In this document: positions 1-34,083 of the stretch, in pieces | How positions within the stretch are numbered: the stretch's first letter is position 1 | Layout of the letters: each line of letters opens with the position of its first letter | Virus record (IMG/VR): IMGVR_UViG_3300033153_004061 | Span: 1 to 37,710 of that record | Length of the DNA stretch: 37,710 nt | Direction: 5' to 3' (one strand) | Origin: a virus | Notes under the pieces: model-generated | What the model was told of the DNA's origin: nothing | Database searches by the model: none | The model's input: only the letters and a program-made list of their open reading frames with translations | Translations under genes and position numbers: made by a program

Positions 1-59
1 GTTCTTTGCATTCTTCTATACACCTGTTGCATTCATCTCACATTCTAAACGAAGGAATA
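1..59. repeat. Terminal direct repeat, left copy
   Basis: These 59 bases are identical to the last 59 bases of the window. The repeat lies inside a coding frame that continues through the join, so it marks the overlap of a circular contig rather than an intergenic repeat. A 59-base overlap would also be expected from a de Bruijn assembler using k=59 (inference), so it need not be a physical terminal redundancy. Confidence 0.95.
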
Positions 60-20273: not shown

Positions 20274-21446
20274 TTAAGCTTCAGCAGCTTGAGCAGCAAT
20301 AGCGATGTCTGCCATACGTTCAGCACCTTCAGAGAAAGTTTTGATACCATAGCGAGACCATGTAAGGTAACGTTTAGTCAATTGACCAGGAACTTGTTGT
20401 TCTTCTGTGTTAACAGTTGAACGAAGAACCATATGAATTGCACCTTTTTCCATAGCGATATTATGAATTGTAACAACTCCGAACTTATCTGAAGCATCAT
20501 CAAGGTCAGATGATACAACACGGTAACCACGTTTTGAAGTAAGAGCAATAGAAGTTGTGTTATCTACAGCTGTTAGTCCTGAAAGTTTAGCACGATCTTT
20601 AGCAGATACTTCAATATAAGTAGATGAACCAGGAGTTCCTTCACCATTGATAGCAAGAACTAGGTTGTCTACAGAAGCAGCAGCAGAACCAGCGATATCT
20701 ACATCACCAGCAGCAGCTGGAGAAGCAACAAATGTAAATACTACACCATTGATTGTTACTGTATCATTTGCAGTTGGGTTAGTTGCAACAGCAAGGTCTA
20801 CAGTAGCAGTAAGATTACGAGCTACATAAAGCTGCATTCCTTGGAATTCACCTTTGTATCCACGTTTGTAAGACTCATCTGAAACATTAAATGTGTTTCC
20901 GATAGCACCTTGACCAATCATATTGAACTGATAAGGATCTACTACAAGAGCAATGTTTGAATCATCTACACCTTCGTTTGAAAGCTCAGCGAACGCTTGT
21001 CCATAAGTTGATACTACATTAGATGTAGAAAGAACAACAGAAGAAGCAAAAGGAACAATATCAGCGTTTGAATATTCGTTAAAGAAGTTTCCTTCAATAT
21101 CTTGACGAATACGGAATGCAGATTTCTCAGCATCTTGTGCAGCGATATCATAAGCAGACTCAGGTTTGTCTTCAGAGTAATCCATTACGAATGAAATGAT
21201 TGGAGTCTTGTTAATTACAAGCTGTTCATTTGTGTAAGTAATATCTTGATCTGTAGCGTTGTTATACTTAGTGTAATCAGATACATTAAGGTATGTAGGA
21301 CGTTGATAGTTAAGAGTGTTACCATTTGGCATGTCCGCAGTAAGCGTCATGTTAGCAAGCTCCATTGCGATTAGTTTTTCTTCTAGAAGTGCTTGTGTTT
21401 TTTTAGCATACTTCTGGTGCTTTACAGCCGAAATTGAATTAGCCAT
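20274..21446 (-). CDS. Major capsid protein, P22-like with inserted domain
   Basis: A 390-residue protein that fits an HK97-fold coat protein of the P22 type. It starts MANSISAVKHQKYAKKTQAL. The P-domain region has NTLNYQRPTYLNVSDYTKY and ALVVDPYQFNMIGQGAIGN. An inserted beta domain (about residues 215-320) carries TINGVVFTFVASPAAAGDV and LVLAINGEGTPGSSTYIEVS. It ends MADIAIAAQAAEA. No Gly is encoded by UGA, in sharp contrast to many neighbours, possibly because it is the most expressed gene. It follows the scaffold and portal genes in the classic order. Confidence 0.85.
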   Translation of the reverse strand: MANSISAVKHQKYAKKTQALLEEKLIAMELANMTLTADMPNGNTLNYQRPTYLNVSDYTKYNNATDQDITYTNEQLVINKTPIISFVMDYSEDKPESAYDIAAQDAEKSAFRIRQDIEGNFFNEYSNADIVPFASSVVLSTSNVVSTYGQAFAELSNEGVDDSNIALVVDPYQFNMIGQGAIGNTFNVSDESYKRGYKGEFQGMQLYVARNLTATVDLAVATNPTANDTVTINGVVFTFVASPAAAGDVDIAGSAAASVDNLVLAINGEGTPGSSTYIEVSAKDRAKLSGLTAVDNTTSIALTSKRGYRVVSSDLDDASDKFGVVTIHNIAMEKGAIHMVLRSTVNTEEQQVPGQLTKRYLTWSRYGIKTFSEGAERMADIAIAAQAAEA

Positions 21447-25000: not shown

Positions 25001-26443
25001 TTAGTAAGCATCATCAGGGTCTGCTATCTCAATCTCAAATGAATCCTCTTCACTGCTATATGTAGTATAAGCGCCATCTTCTGGCTCATTGTGATACACA
25101 GCATTCTCTGGATATTCTCTCTTATCTATTAGTTCAAAGTACATTCTCATCATCAATGCATCAGAGTAATCTGGAGATCTTCCAAGTCTTTCCTTGATCT
25201 TCTCTTTGCTTATTATCTTCTTCTTAGCATCTTTGTCTATATCTACCTCACAAACAATATCTAGTTCTTCTATGATCTTTTGTTTAATACCTTCATCATC
25301 TGTATTGATTCTTATGACTCACTCCTCTATAGGTTTTGCTAATTCAAAGTAACACTGAGTCTTAAGGTTAACAAAGTTACGTTTCATATAATCATGCACC
25401 TTACTCTCATAAGGATTGATAGGTGAAGAGTTATTCAAGAACCCTTTACATTTAAGGATATCAACAACACCTCAACCAACACCATCTTCATCAACAATAG
25501 TGTGACTCATTGTGACTCAGTATCTATAAGCAATCTTTCTTATTCTGTCTGCGAGCTCATCTACTCAACACTTATCTATAGATATAATCTCTTTCACTTC
25601 CCATCAATCCCACACTTGAATAACCGCAAGATCTTTCCCATTCCTTGCTGCATCACAAGATATATATTTTGTTCCGTTGTATGCTTGGTTTGTAAACATA
25701 TCGGTCAAAGAATCATACTTGTACAGCTTACCTGGAGTGTCATCATACTCAAAGTTACCATTTAATAAACGCTCTACAGTTACTTTATCAGCGGTCTTTA
25801 GCTGTTCTATATAGTGCTTACTAATAAACGGGTTATCGGTCACAAGTGATGGGACAAACACTCTTCTTTCTGGTAGTGTTCATCTTCTATATGGCTGATA
25901 GAATTCTGTATATATCCAATTCTTAGCAGGATTACAAGTATACAAAGCCTTTGGAGTAGTTGACCATCCTTCACCTTCTAATAAAGAGAAACGCCCTTTG
26001 AGTATATTCACTGCCTTAACGTCTATTTCCTGAGCTTCATCTATAAACACTCATGTAATACCATAAGAACCAAGGCGATCATAGTTAGGGTCAGAAGGCA
26101 TATGAGATAGATCAATAAGGAAGACTCTACTTCCATTCTTAAATGTTATAGTTGATTCCTGTGCGTTATAGTTGAATTGTTCTTCTATGCCAAAAGACTT
26201 TGCCACCTCAAAGAAGGTTAACAAAGTTGTTTGTCTTAAACGTTTAAGTTCATTGCGTCAGATAATCCATGCACTTCCTTGTTTAGAAAGACACTGGATA
26301 ATAATCCATGCACAACCAAAGTAACTCTTGCCTCAACGAGCTCCTCCACCATAAAGAACCTCTGTTGTTGTAGAATCATTAAGTTTTTCTAATGCTTCGT
26401 ATTGTCGTCATGTAGGTTTAAATTGTATCTTTATTTTCTGCAT
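25001..26443 (-). CDS. terL: Terminase large subunit
   Basis: A 480-residue packaging motor. Walker A is YGGGARGGKS (residues 31-40), with the Gly at 37 encoded by UGA. Walker B is VFIDEAQEI (132-140). The C-terminal nuclease has CDAARNGKD (Asp264), IVDEDGVGGGVVD (316-328, UGA at 324) and RSPDYSDALMM. UGA occurs at least ten times; under the standard code only an 85-residue fragment remains. It sits two genes away from the probable TerS and next to the portal, as in other tailed phages. Start ATG 26443 (MQKIKIQFKPTG); the preceding stop lies four bases upstream. Confidence 0.95.
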
Positions 26444-28343: not shown

Positions 28344-28689
28344 ACAAAAACCCTATGGATAGAGCCTAAGATAGTACACGCAAGGACTACCCTAGACACT
28401 ATTCACAGAGAGAGATGTGTAGTGTGTTTCTGAATTGCTTATGTAAAGAAAACTTTAAGTCCTGCTTTGTTCCCAACTCTGACGAGTAGAGCTTTTGTCA
28501 GGTTCTTCAACGGTAGGCGAACCCCGTCTATCATATATTGAATTACAGATTATTCCTGACAACAATGTGTCATAGCAAGGATAATATATAATCCTCTGTA
28601 ATAAATATAGATAATGTGTATTTGTTCTGTTGCATTAAACAAGCTATATTGTTGCAACGCCGAGAGCCTATCTCCCGTATAGTTGTGAT
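28344..28689 (-). ncRNA. Candidate large structured ncRNA
   Basis: About 345-380 nt without a convincing gene, expressed from the promoter at 28690-28718. Minus-strand helices in order: GAGA/UCUC; GUUGCAACAA pairing with UUGUuuaaUGCAAC; a junction closed by AUUACAG/CUGUAAU holding AGGAU/AUCCU and GACA/UGUC hairpins; an H-type pseudoknot with ACGG/CCGU and GGUUC/GAACC; CUGAC/GUCAG; ACACUACACA/UGUGaaUAGUGU; and CUAGGGUAGU/ACUAUCUUAG with two G-U pairs. It ends near CCAUAGGG-UUUUUG. The G-U pairs favour this strand. Function unknown. Confidence 0.6.
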
Positions 28690-28718
28690 ATTATATACAC
28701 TCTATTCAAATTTTGCAA
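28690..28718 (-). promoter_or_regulatory. Promoter of the large ncRNA
   Basis: Minus strand TTGCAA - 17 bp - TATAAT. The -35 lies within the last codons of ninG and the spacer covers its stop codon. Confidence 0.7.
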
Positions 28719-29256
28719 CTCTTTCTTTATAGTACTCTATTTTCTCTCTTAGATCATTCATTCACATCTTATAAGGTTGTTTTGCCAGCCTGTGCATTTC
28801 TTGCACATATTCAAGTCAGTGTTTGTTTACCATATGTAAAGTATACATTCTCATATGGAATTCTTGATTGTATGTATTACAACCAGCACATCCTAGATGA
28901 CAATTCTCTTCATCGTATCTATATCTTATACAACCTCTACCAATGTAATGGCAGTTGTGAGCTTTTGAGAACTCCACATCTTTTGAACAGGTTATACACT
29001 GTCATGTTCAGTTTTCAGAGTCTCTATGCCTTATAAACCTAGAAAATATAGTATCTAGTTTCTTTTTTAAGCTAGATATAGTCTCTCGCTTCTTAGGCTT
29101 AGCTTTAACAGCCTTTTCTTTCTTAGTTGATACTTTCTTCGGCTTTTGTTTTTCAAACGCTCTCAAGCAATCATATGAACATGTTTTATCAGTTGATTTG
29201 AATGGAGAGAACTTTTCTCAACAAGCCTTACATTTTTTCTGTTTAACTTTATCCAT
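28702..29256 (-). CDS. ninG: NinG-like recombination protein
   Basis: A 184-residue protein. It has an N-terminal zinc knuckle (KCKACGEKFSPF and TCSYDC), a Lys-rich linker, then CITCSKDVEFSKAHNCHYIG, RYRYDEENCHLGCAGCNTYN and a helical end, matching the layout of lambda NinG (Rap): CxxC, AGHY-like, R-x-DE-N-H-x-x-C-x-x-CN. NinG is a Holliday-junction-directed endonuclease of the NinB/Erf recombination group. UGA-Gly occurs in KACGEK, twice around ENGTGQ, in KHGLEY and in KMGMND. Its 5' leader is highly structured. Confidence 0.85.
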
Positions 29257-29340
29257 AATAGTATTTGTTATATAAAATACGTGGTTGATATAGCTCAGCC
29301 ACGAAAGCTGAAGAAAGAATTAACATCATGATAATGTTTT
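29257..29340 (-). promoter_or_regulatory. Structured ninG leader with pseudoknot
   Basis: UCAGC/GCUGA (29315-29295 region) has a loop CGUGG that can pair with CCACG downstream, an H-type pseudoknot. GUAUUU/AAAUAC forms a second hairpin that ends nine bases before ATG 29256. No Shine-Dalgarno sequence is present. The arrangement could control ninG translation. Confidence 0.5.
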
Positions 29341-29367
29341 CTTTATAACCAGTTTATACACTGGATA

Positions 29368-29498
29368 TTGTATGTATAGCTTCTCTATTCACAGAAGGGG
29401 TTTTGCAGACCCTGTGAAGAGAATTACTGCACCTCTTAGTAAGAGTTTCTCAGCATTACCTGTTGTCTCTTTTAGCGTATAACGCACTATACATACAA
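29368..29498 (-). ncRNA. Candidate 131-nt RNA with a 12-bp closing helix
   Basis: UUGUAUGUAUAG (29498-29487) pairs perfectly with CUAUACAUACAA (29379-29368). Inside are GCG-UUAUA-CGC, CUCUU-ACU-AAGAG and a long hairpin UUCUCU-UCACAG ... CUGUGA-AU-AGAGAA. Two more hairpins, CCAGU/ACUGG and AACAU/AUGUU, follow toward ninG. No coding frame was seen in this 300-bp gap beyond a 5-codon frame at its upstream edge. It may be an independent RNA or the 5' part of the ninG leader. Confidence 0.55.
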
Positions 29499-29525
29499 AA
29501 TTCAATATACAAAATTAAGTTTTGA

Positions 29526-29545
29526 GAGAGATACAAAGACCTCTC
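29526..29545 (-). terminator. Hairpin closing the SD cassette
   Basis: Minus-strand RNA GAGAGGU - 6-base loop - AUCUCUC, 7 bp with one G-U pair, soon after the last SD-led frame. No true U-run follows, so it may be a weak terminator or an RNA-stabilising end. Confidence 0.35.
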
Positions 29546-29552
29546 CCATTTA

Positions 29553-29570
29553 TTACATTACTGGAAACAT
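29553..29570 (-). other. Five-codon frame with a perfect SD
   Basis: AAAGGAGG, 6 bp, then ATG TTT CCA GTA ATG TAA. The Shine-Dalgarno sequence is as strong as those of the real cassette genes and overlaps the previous stop codon. It could be a leader peptide, a ribosome stand-by site or a decayed gene remnant. Confidence 0.3.
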
Positions 29571-29572
29571 AG

Positions 29573-29662
29573 CTATCCTCCTTTTTCTAAAGTTAGATTT
29601 GCTATATCACCATTTCTTCGTTTATTCTTTCTTGTCTTTGATCTTCTTTTCCAAGTACACAT
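29573..29662 (-). CDS. 29-residue basic peptide, SD-led
   Basis: MCTWKRRSKTRKNKRRNGDI then ANLTLEKGG. Strongly basic first half. AAGGAGG lies 6-7 bp before the ATG. It is the last sizeable member of the SD cassette and its last codons form the SD of the five-codon frame. Unrecognised. Confidence 0.5.
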   Translation of the reverse strand: MCTWKRRSKTRKNKRRNGDIANLTLEKGG

Positions 29663-29672
29663 ATCGTCCTCC

Positions 29673-29936
29673 TTATGATGGCATGCCATACATTTTTCTC
29701 ATACTATCTTCCATGTTATCAAAATCCATAACCTGTTGGATAGGATCAATCCTCTTGTCCTGAATACACTTCTGAACACTTTCATCAGCTCTATATATTT
29801 CAATAGCCTTCTCATAGTCCACTGACTCTACCATCTGAATCTCGTGAGACCCAGGTGGGATAAGGCTTACTGGCGTGCCTGCAAATAAGCAACATATAGT
29901 GCCGTGTTCATCAACATAGAAAAGGTATTTATTCAT
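29673..29936 (-). CDS. SD-cassette protein, paralogue of the next gene
   Basis: An 87-residue protein, MNKYLFYVDEHGTICCLFAG onward, with DYEKAIEIYRADESVQKCIQ and a C-terminal KMYGMPS. Its N-terminus matches the 70-residue neighbour (MSKFLFYVDLNGKIIGF), and both share a DYxKAL/I element, so they are tandem paralogues. AAGGAGG stands 6 bp before the ATG; the start overlaps the upstream gene by 8 bp. No UGA. Function unknown. Confidence 0.7.
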   Translation of the reverse strand: MNKYLFYVDEHGTICCLFAGTPVSLIPPGSHEIQMVESVDYEKAIEIYRADESVQKCIQDKRIDPIQQVMDFDNMEDSMRKMYGMPS

Positions 29937-30141
29937 CTTGTCCTCCTTTTTTTGTAGAAAGTCTTTCTAAAGTCTCTTGTACAACAGTTAGCTCTCCATA
30001 TCTTTTAAGAGCCTTTCCGTAATCATCTTCTTTTATTACTCTTATCTCCAAAGAATTAACACCAATCTCTTCAATTTTTTTATCTGAATCAAAACCAATA
30101 ATCTTTCCGTTAAGATCCACATAGAAAAGAAACTTACTCAT
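29929..30141 (-). CDS. SD-cassette protein, paralogue of the previous gene
   Basis: A 70-residue protein starting MSKFLFYVDLNGKII. ATG 30141 is preferred to ATG 30150 because AAAGGA is at proper distance only from the former. Elements IRVIKEDDYGKALKRYGEL and the acidic end GGQDE. It overlaps both neighbours by 8 bp. No UGA. Probably a product of tandem duplication with 29673-29936. Confidence 0.7.
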   Translation of the reverse strand: MSKFLFYVDLNGKIIGFDSDKKIEEIGVNSLEIRVIKEDDYGKALKRYGELTVVQETLERLSTKKGGQDE

Positions 30142-30388
30142 TGTTACCATCCTTTATATCACATTTATCGTCTCCGAATATCTTCACAGTAATGTAATGA
30201 AAGTATTCATCACTACAAAGCATTTTTCTAATAGCTTTTCTTTTGTCTTCAGCCATTATACCGATGACAAAATCAAACCTTCCAGCTTCTTTCCTGCTAT
30301 ATACACTTCTCGTGTAGTTTTCCTGTGTATATACCTCATAACTCTCGTCACCTTCTATAGTAACAACAAAATGTTTATCTTCTGCCAT
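30134..30388 (-). CDS. SD-cassette protein, 84 residues
   Basis: MAEDKHFVVTIEGDESYEVY onward, with a middle RFDFVIGIMAEDKRKAIRKM and an acidic end. Two AEDK motifs are present. AAGGAG precedes the ATG by 6-7 bp. No UGA; Gly is GGN only. Unrecognised. Confidence 0.7.
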   Translation of the reverse strand: MAEDKHFVVTIEGDESYEVYTQENYTRSVYSRKEAGRFDFVIGIMAEDKRKAIRKMLCSDEYFHYITVKIFGDDKCDIKDGNNE

Positions 30389-33579: not shown

Positions 33580-33966
33580 TTAGAAATTAGAATTGTATTC
33601 AGCGACACTTTGACCAGCTTTATAAATATCTGAATCAAGAGTGATTGTGATATCTTCAAGGTTTTCAGCTCATAGATAGTCAGTTACTTTAGAGAATAAC
33701 TCCATGGCTATATCTGCTTCATCTTTTTTATTATCATCTAATACAATAATCTCTTCTGTTTCTCCTGTGAATGAATTATCATGGTCAATATAAGTGATCT
33801 CAAATTTCCACTTACCTTCTGTAGATTTATAAGGAATCTCAAGATAAGCTTGTACATTCTCATCTGCTACATAGTATCAGTCAAACTCTTCAATGTTAAT
33901 ATCTGCTTCTATTGTTCCTCCTGATATTTTCAGAAGAGCCTTCTCAATTGATTTGTATTTGTTCAT
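33580..33966 (-). CDS. Unknown acidic 128-residue protein
   Basis: MNKYKSIEKALLKISGGTIE onward. Acidic, beta-rich (VQAYLEIPYKSTEGKWKFEI), with two UGA-Gly (EFDGYY, DYLGAEN). It is the first gene behind promoter C, after a structured 5' leader, and its start has the AACACGCAAAACA leader shared with ATG 508. Unrecognised; an early host-directed function is plausible from its position. Confidence 0.65.
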
Positions 33967-34054: not shown

Positions 34055-34083
34055 ATTATATACATTCGTATATTCAAAGTCAA
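34055..34083 (-). promoter_or_regulatory. Promoter C with spacer dyad
   Basis: Minus strand TTGACT - 17 bp - TATAAT, the best match to the sigma70 consensus in the window. The spacer contains ATATAC-GAAT-GTATAT (34073-34058), the same dyad and phase as promoters A and B. Confidence 0.75.

Follow-up and report, generated by a model that had tools for sequence, protein, structure and literature searches.

A discrete, gene-free predicted transcription unit of about 340 nt was located on the minus strand between the ninG and terminase genes of the virus record IMGVR_UViG_3300033153_004061, and on balance it is probably a small noncoding RNA gene of this phage. The preliminary description of the locus had proposed a large structured noncoding RNA behind its own promoter; the transcription unit is upheld by a promoter class, a terminator hairpin specific to the minus strand and the lack of coding signals, whereas a large, ornate RNA of the GOLLD or ROOL kind was not borne out. 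The principal features are as follows.

28702-29256, minus: ninG/rap recombination nuclease gene (PHROG 171, E 5.9e-25), the upstream neighbour, with its stop at 28702
28718-28344, minus: gene-free stretch
28718-28690, minus: promoter TTGCAA-17-TATAAT followed by A (-35 at 28718-28713, -10 at 28695-28690)
28684-28344, minus: putative noncoding transcription unit, about 340 nt (presumed start 6-8 nt past the -10, presumed end within the U-tract)
28410-28342, minus: oversized intrinsic terminator, a 23-bp hairpin with several G-U pairs plus UUUUUGUUUG
28343-28315, minus: promoter-like site (promoter D), TTGCTT-17-TATACT-A, which overlaps the U-tract and precedes the terminase operon
28284-28210, minus: 24-codon ORF (MEEVIVLTNDEPEVDPVEDDAYM) with TTAACC, a TAAC-type start signal, upstream
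25001-26443, minus: large terminase gene terL
20274-21446, minus: capsid gene

Genome and genetic code

The window, i.e. the whole stretch of DNA analysed, is the virus contig of 37,710 nt. As a 59-nt direct repeat is shared by the contig ends, the phage genome looks like a complete, closed circle. Open frames covered 89% of it when TGA was taken to encode an amino acid vs 56% under the standard code, and glycine was the commonest residue of relatives opposite TGA codons in alignments of terL and ninG. The phage is accordingly annotated here with code 25 (TGA = Gly) as its predicted code, which would make Absconditabacterium or Gracilibacterium the probable host; other phages with the same TGA = Gly code are on record (PMC10746230). 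The genes recognised (ninG, large terminase and capsid) are on the minus strand, as is the unit.

Promoter, terminator and coding potential

The promoter TTGCAA-17-TATAAT, which the preliminary description had placed in the end of ninG, is present there, with its -35 inside the 3' end of the gene, and genome-wide counts put it beyond chance. Over the whole genome, TTGNNN-16..18-TATAAT was found nine times on the minus strand vs twice on the plus strand (3.0 ± 1.8 expected from an order-3 Markov model), and TTGN(19-21)TATAATA nine times on the minus strand and never on the plus strand; the promoter at 28718 is one of these last nine sites, seven of which have an intergenic -10. A scan around the unit with a loose consensus gave 13 sites vs 11 expected, which is within chance. 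The promoter at 28718 looks like a member of the phage's own promoter set and is the sole strict-consensus promoter between 34083 and 24694.

At the other end of the unit, the hairpin at 28410-28351 with its T-tract reached -27.7 kcal/mol and was the strongest in the genome in a scan of both strands, the next-best hairpins with a T-tract having -17.9 kcal/mol on the minus strand and -19.9 kcal/mol on the plus strand. The fold of the terminator segment had a z of -3.6 on the minus strand vs -0.4 on the plus strand; due to its several G-U pairs it folds well only as minus-strand RNA, for which the pairing is specific. A 10-bp stem with two G-U pairs reported previously turned out to be the core of a 12-bp segment, GUCUAGGGUAGU/ACUAUCUUAGGC (28397-28364), within this 23-bp hairpin. 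The U-run just before promoter D, near which the unit had been said to end, is present as well: U-runs (UUUUUGUUU from 28350, followed by seven U at 28339-28333) precede TTGCTT-17-TATACT. Promoter and terminator have the same orientation and enclose about 340 nt, close to the ends given earlier for the element.

No ORF of at least 60 aa was found inside the gap under code 25, and the small ORFs lack the usual start signal of the genome, in agreement with the claim that no gene is present. This signal, TAAC(C) about 11-15 nt ahead of the start codon, was seen in 22 of 50 genes against a background of 6.6%, and none of the gap ORFs of at least 12 aa has it. Shine-Dalgarno sites were found at 3/50 gene starts, and Absconditabacteria have been reported to be Shine-Dalgarno-scarce (PMC10783764); the three Shine-Dalgarno-like starts are clustered at 29573-30388. 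No gap ORF showed a convincing Shine-Dalgarno start; a purine-rich GGAG precedes just one of them, which has a TTG start and lies about 15 nt from the motif. With its own promoter, an intrinsic terminator and no ORF, the unit has the attributes of a small RNA gene.

Directly downstream, promoter D shares its -35 with two consensus promoters (2359 and 858), and its -10 departs from the consensus by one base. The evidence for it is weaker than for the site at 28718; transcription of the terminase operon could begin here, with the 24-codon ORF as the probable first gene past the unit.

Fold of the interior

The following elements were predicted between promoter and terminator.

28681-28632, minus: 5' hairpins CGGGAG/CUCUCG and GCGUUG.AACAA/UUGUU.UAAUGC (z -2.4; pair probabilities 0.62-0.95, second fold)
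28613-28529, minus: three-way junction UAUC/GAUA, UAUAUU/AAUAUA and AUUACAG/CUGUAAU plus two inner hairpins
28528-28501, minus: candidate H-type pseudoknot, GACG or ACGG / CGUU or CCGU with GGUUC/GAACC
28502-28461, minus: hairpin CCUG..CUC.ACUC/GAGU.GGG..CAGG (pair probability 0.93-0.96; z -2.4)

The minimum-energy fold (RNAfold) contained more than a dozen helices, where at least seven had been claimed. Folding of the whole unit led to z values of -3.0 on the minus strand and -2.7 on the plus strand, with one of 300 shuffles as good on each strand. When 234 windows of the same size from the same strand and genome were compared, using 16 shuffles for each, about 17 folded better than the unit, whose fold is in the top tenth of the genome's windows, modestly beyond chance and no outlier. 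The three-way junction with AUUACAG/CUGUAAU recurred in the predicted fold, enclosing AGGAU/AUCCU and UGACA/UGUCA; its closing helices had mean pair probabilities of 0.96-0.98, and these three helices 0.98, 0.78 and 0.79, respectively. With a z of -2.2 on the minus strand and -3.1 on the plus strand it is a nearly strand-symmetric inverted repeat and, due to this near symmetry, could be a DNA inverted repeat. The pseudoknot ACGG/CCGU with GGUUC/GAACC exists in the sequence as described, but not beyond chance, as one or more arise in 32% of shuffles, and it was rejected as evidence of RNA structure. Also set aside was a stem closing the 5' and 3' ends, UAUACGGG/CCCGUAUA (28681-28674 with 28326-28319), because its 3' arm lies past the terminator. 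Apart from the terminator, the helices are individually weak evidence.

Comparison with known RNAs

A cmscan against all 4227 Rfam families with E up to 10 led to a single chance snoRNA match in the region, and the GOLLD and ROOL covariance models gave no match, either at the gathering score or at E up to 10. Identity of the unit with GOLLD, ROOL, introns or any other Rfam family was rejected on the basis of this search. Neither a tRNA nor a tmRNA was detected in the genome by ARAGORN. That the unit belongs to a known family such as GOLLD, ROOL, ARRPOF, a group I intron or a tmRNA is therefore highly improbable, although by inspection its size range and pseudoknot are superficially alike. Many GOLLD RNAs are longer than 800 nt, and both GOLLD and ROOL are frequently located close to tRNA islands (PMC12286853). 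The unit shares with them that it is phage-borne, noncoding and multi-helical; it differs in lacking an Rfam match and a tRNA island, in being much shorter, and in that its helices are predicted from one sequence. The words "large, ornate", which the preliminary description used of GOLLD and ROOL, hence do not fit an RNA of about 340 nt whose interior fold is unexceptional for its genome.

A closer parallel in layout is found in phage lambda. There, the late promoter gives rise to the 194-nt 6S leader RNA, which is followed by a terminator. Both loci have a promoter, a structured noncoding stretch and a terminator in the same orientation between early/recombination genes and late genes, in the present phage with the promoter at 28718-28690, the terminator at 28410-28342, late genes from 28284 downwards and terL at 25001-26443. 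In contrast to lambda 6S, the unit is about 340 nt long, its terminator hairpin is far larger, a promoter-like site follows the terminator, no antiterminator beyond chance is present, and no antitermination gene is among those recognised. A lambda-type leader depends on a Q-type antitermination protein; these proteins are diverse, so that the lack of one by name would carry little weight.

Search for homologues in related phages

Homologues of the unit were found neither by blastn in phage and plasmid records nor by nhmmer and blastn in the loci of relatives; the exact pseudoknot pattern recovered no relative of the unit across IMG/VR, and a covariance model built from the single sequence retrieved no homologue, whether from 38 related loci or from 14 virus records scanned in full. 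Searches for close relatives with the ninG, TerL, capsid, portal and TerS-like proteins, and in genomes, led to distant phages only (about 30-62% identical). Among them are recoded phages with capsid and portal proteins about 30-62% identical and related terminases; no ninG was found in the recoded relatives where it was sought.

In many of the relatives examined, noncoding gaps that hold repeats precede the terminase genes. A conserved hairpin CACATAA..TTATGTG was observed before the terminase genes in six loci (L123 3283, L133 567, L146 3090, L143 3010, L136 324 and L137 7636), followed by GCCACGCAGAGAGG-like sequence in L123, L133 and L146. A GC-rich motif, GRGACCCGG..GGGGT then TATACCAYCYCC..ATTTTT, is located ahead of the terminase genes in L123, L128, L133, L136, L143 and L146 and probably serves this group of phages as a cos-like packaging site. 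Short phage-specific repeats are likewise present before the terminase genes (GTGAACA, TGTGAACAC, GTTTACAT, GTTGACATAA and AGTGTTAA in L128, L123, L124, L133 and L137), repeated words that resemble replication-origin iterons. Neither part of this pre-terminase element, hairpin or cos-like motif, was matched in the window, the best hit of a profile of the cos-like motif to the 37,710 nt having an E of about 1.

Possible functions of the unit

From its sequence, we infer that the unit is transcribed and that its RNA is stable and acts as RNA. A host-type RNA polymerase would start at the promoter at 28718-28690 on the minus strand and produce a transcript of about 340 nt with several hairpins, which would end at the terminator at 28410-28342, while promoter D just downstream would serve the terminase and structural genes. 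Most plausibly, the RNA would bind a protein or a second RNA and so act in trans when expression passes from early to late genes, and the terminator would keep transcription from the ninG side out of the terminase genes. The longest complementarity of the unit to other phage transcripts was 11 nt vs a shuffle mean of 12.2, which gives no indication of a target in trans among them; the reading as an antisense RNA against transcripts of this phage was rejected, complementarity being no better than in shuffles.

The main rival is a late-operon leader. In this case, late transcription would begin at the promoter at 28718, and the structured stretch and its terminator would form a leader acting in cis, which stops transcription before the terminase and structural genes or, as in lambda, lets it pass with the help of an antitermination factor. 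We regard this as possible, though not the likelier course. It would fit the position of the unit between a recombination gene and the terminase genes, and the promoter at 28718, being the only strict-consensus one over this part of the genome, is the best candidate to drive terS-terL; at 34083, too, the promoter is followed by a short leader that has a hairpin and T-tract directly before a gene. However, the near-consensus promoter at 28343-28315, right past the terminator, could drive the terminase genes alone, and an antiterminator hairpin of -7.6 kcal/mol can be drawn, but the arm is paired equally well in 49% of shuffles, so that the antiterminator reading, with an alternative pairing no better than in shuffles, was dropped. 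A spacer devoid of RNA function, carrying a promoter and a strong terminator around an interior that is ordinary or a DNA element (a packaging or replication site), appears unlikely. The repeats and the conserved GC-rich cos-like DNA motif in the relatives' pre-terminase gaps speak for it, as do the near strand symmetry of the three-way junction and the unremarkable interior fold; since about 17 of the 234 genome windows fold better, the interior could be no more than ordinary AT-rich sequence. Against it stand the missing match to the cos-like profile, the minus-strand specificity that the G-U pairs confer on the 3' hairpin, and the common orientation of promoter and terminator.

Therefore, we class the unit as an orphan small RNA gene belonging to the phage, which is the most likely assignment from its sequence and at present a solid but orphan prediction. 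It is rather doubtful that it founds a new RNA class, restricted to phages of TGA-recoding bacteria of the candidate phyla and acting in trans at the early-to-late switch. No literature on noncoding RNAs was found for the phages that infect Absconditabacteria and Gracilibacteria, two host groups in which the code is altered and Shine-Dalgarno sites are scarce; if the prediction is true, an RNA gene delimited by promoter and terminator where early and late genes meet would offer a candidate whose ends are exactly defined.

Other noncoding elements in the genome

Because a second noncoding unit bounded by promoter and terminator occurs at 2359-2207, this phage seems to carry such RNA genes habitually. 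In this second unit (2359-2200, minus), the consensus promoter TTGCTT-17-TATAATA is followed by hairpins over about 130 nt and by a terminator of 13 bp at 2207. It resembles the unit described here in its consensus promoter, its strong terminator and the structured noncoding stretch between them, and differs in its length of about 130 nt, its sequence and its far more significant fold (2081-2421, z -7.5). Complementarity between its loop CCCCAAGA and UCUUGGGG at the terminator loop hints at a kissing or a switching contact. On the upstream side of ninG, the gap also folds far more strongly than the unit described here, with a z of -5.1 (29257-29572, minus) and of about -8 for 29281-29621, and 27-nt arms (29353-29379 / 29487-29513) close a multi-hairpin core there. 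Neither a consensus promoter nor an Rfam match was found for the gap at 29257-29572, nor a homologue in the relatives' loci searched. Finally, at 34083-33987 (minus) a consensus promoter followed by a hairpin with T-tract just before the gene at 33580-33966 possibly forms a short attenuating leader.
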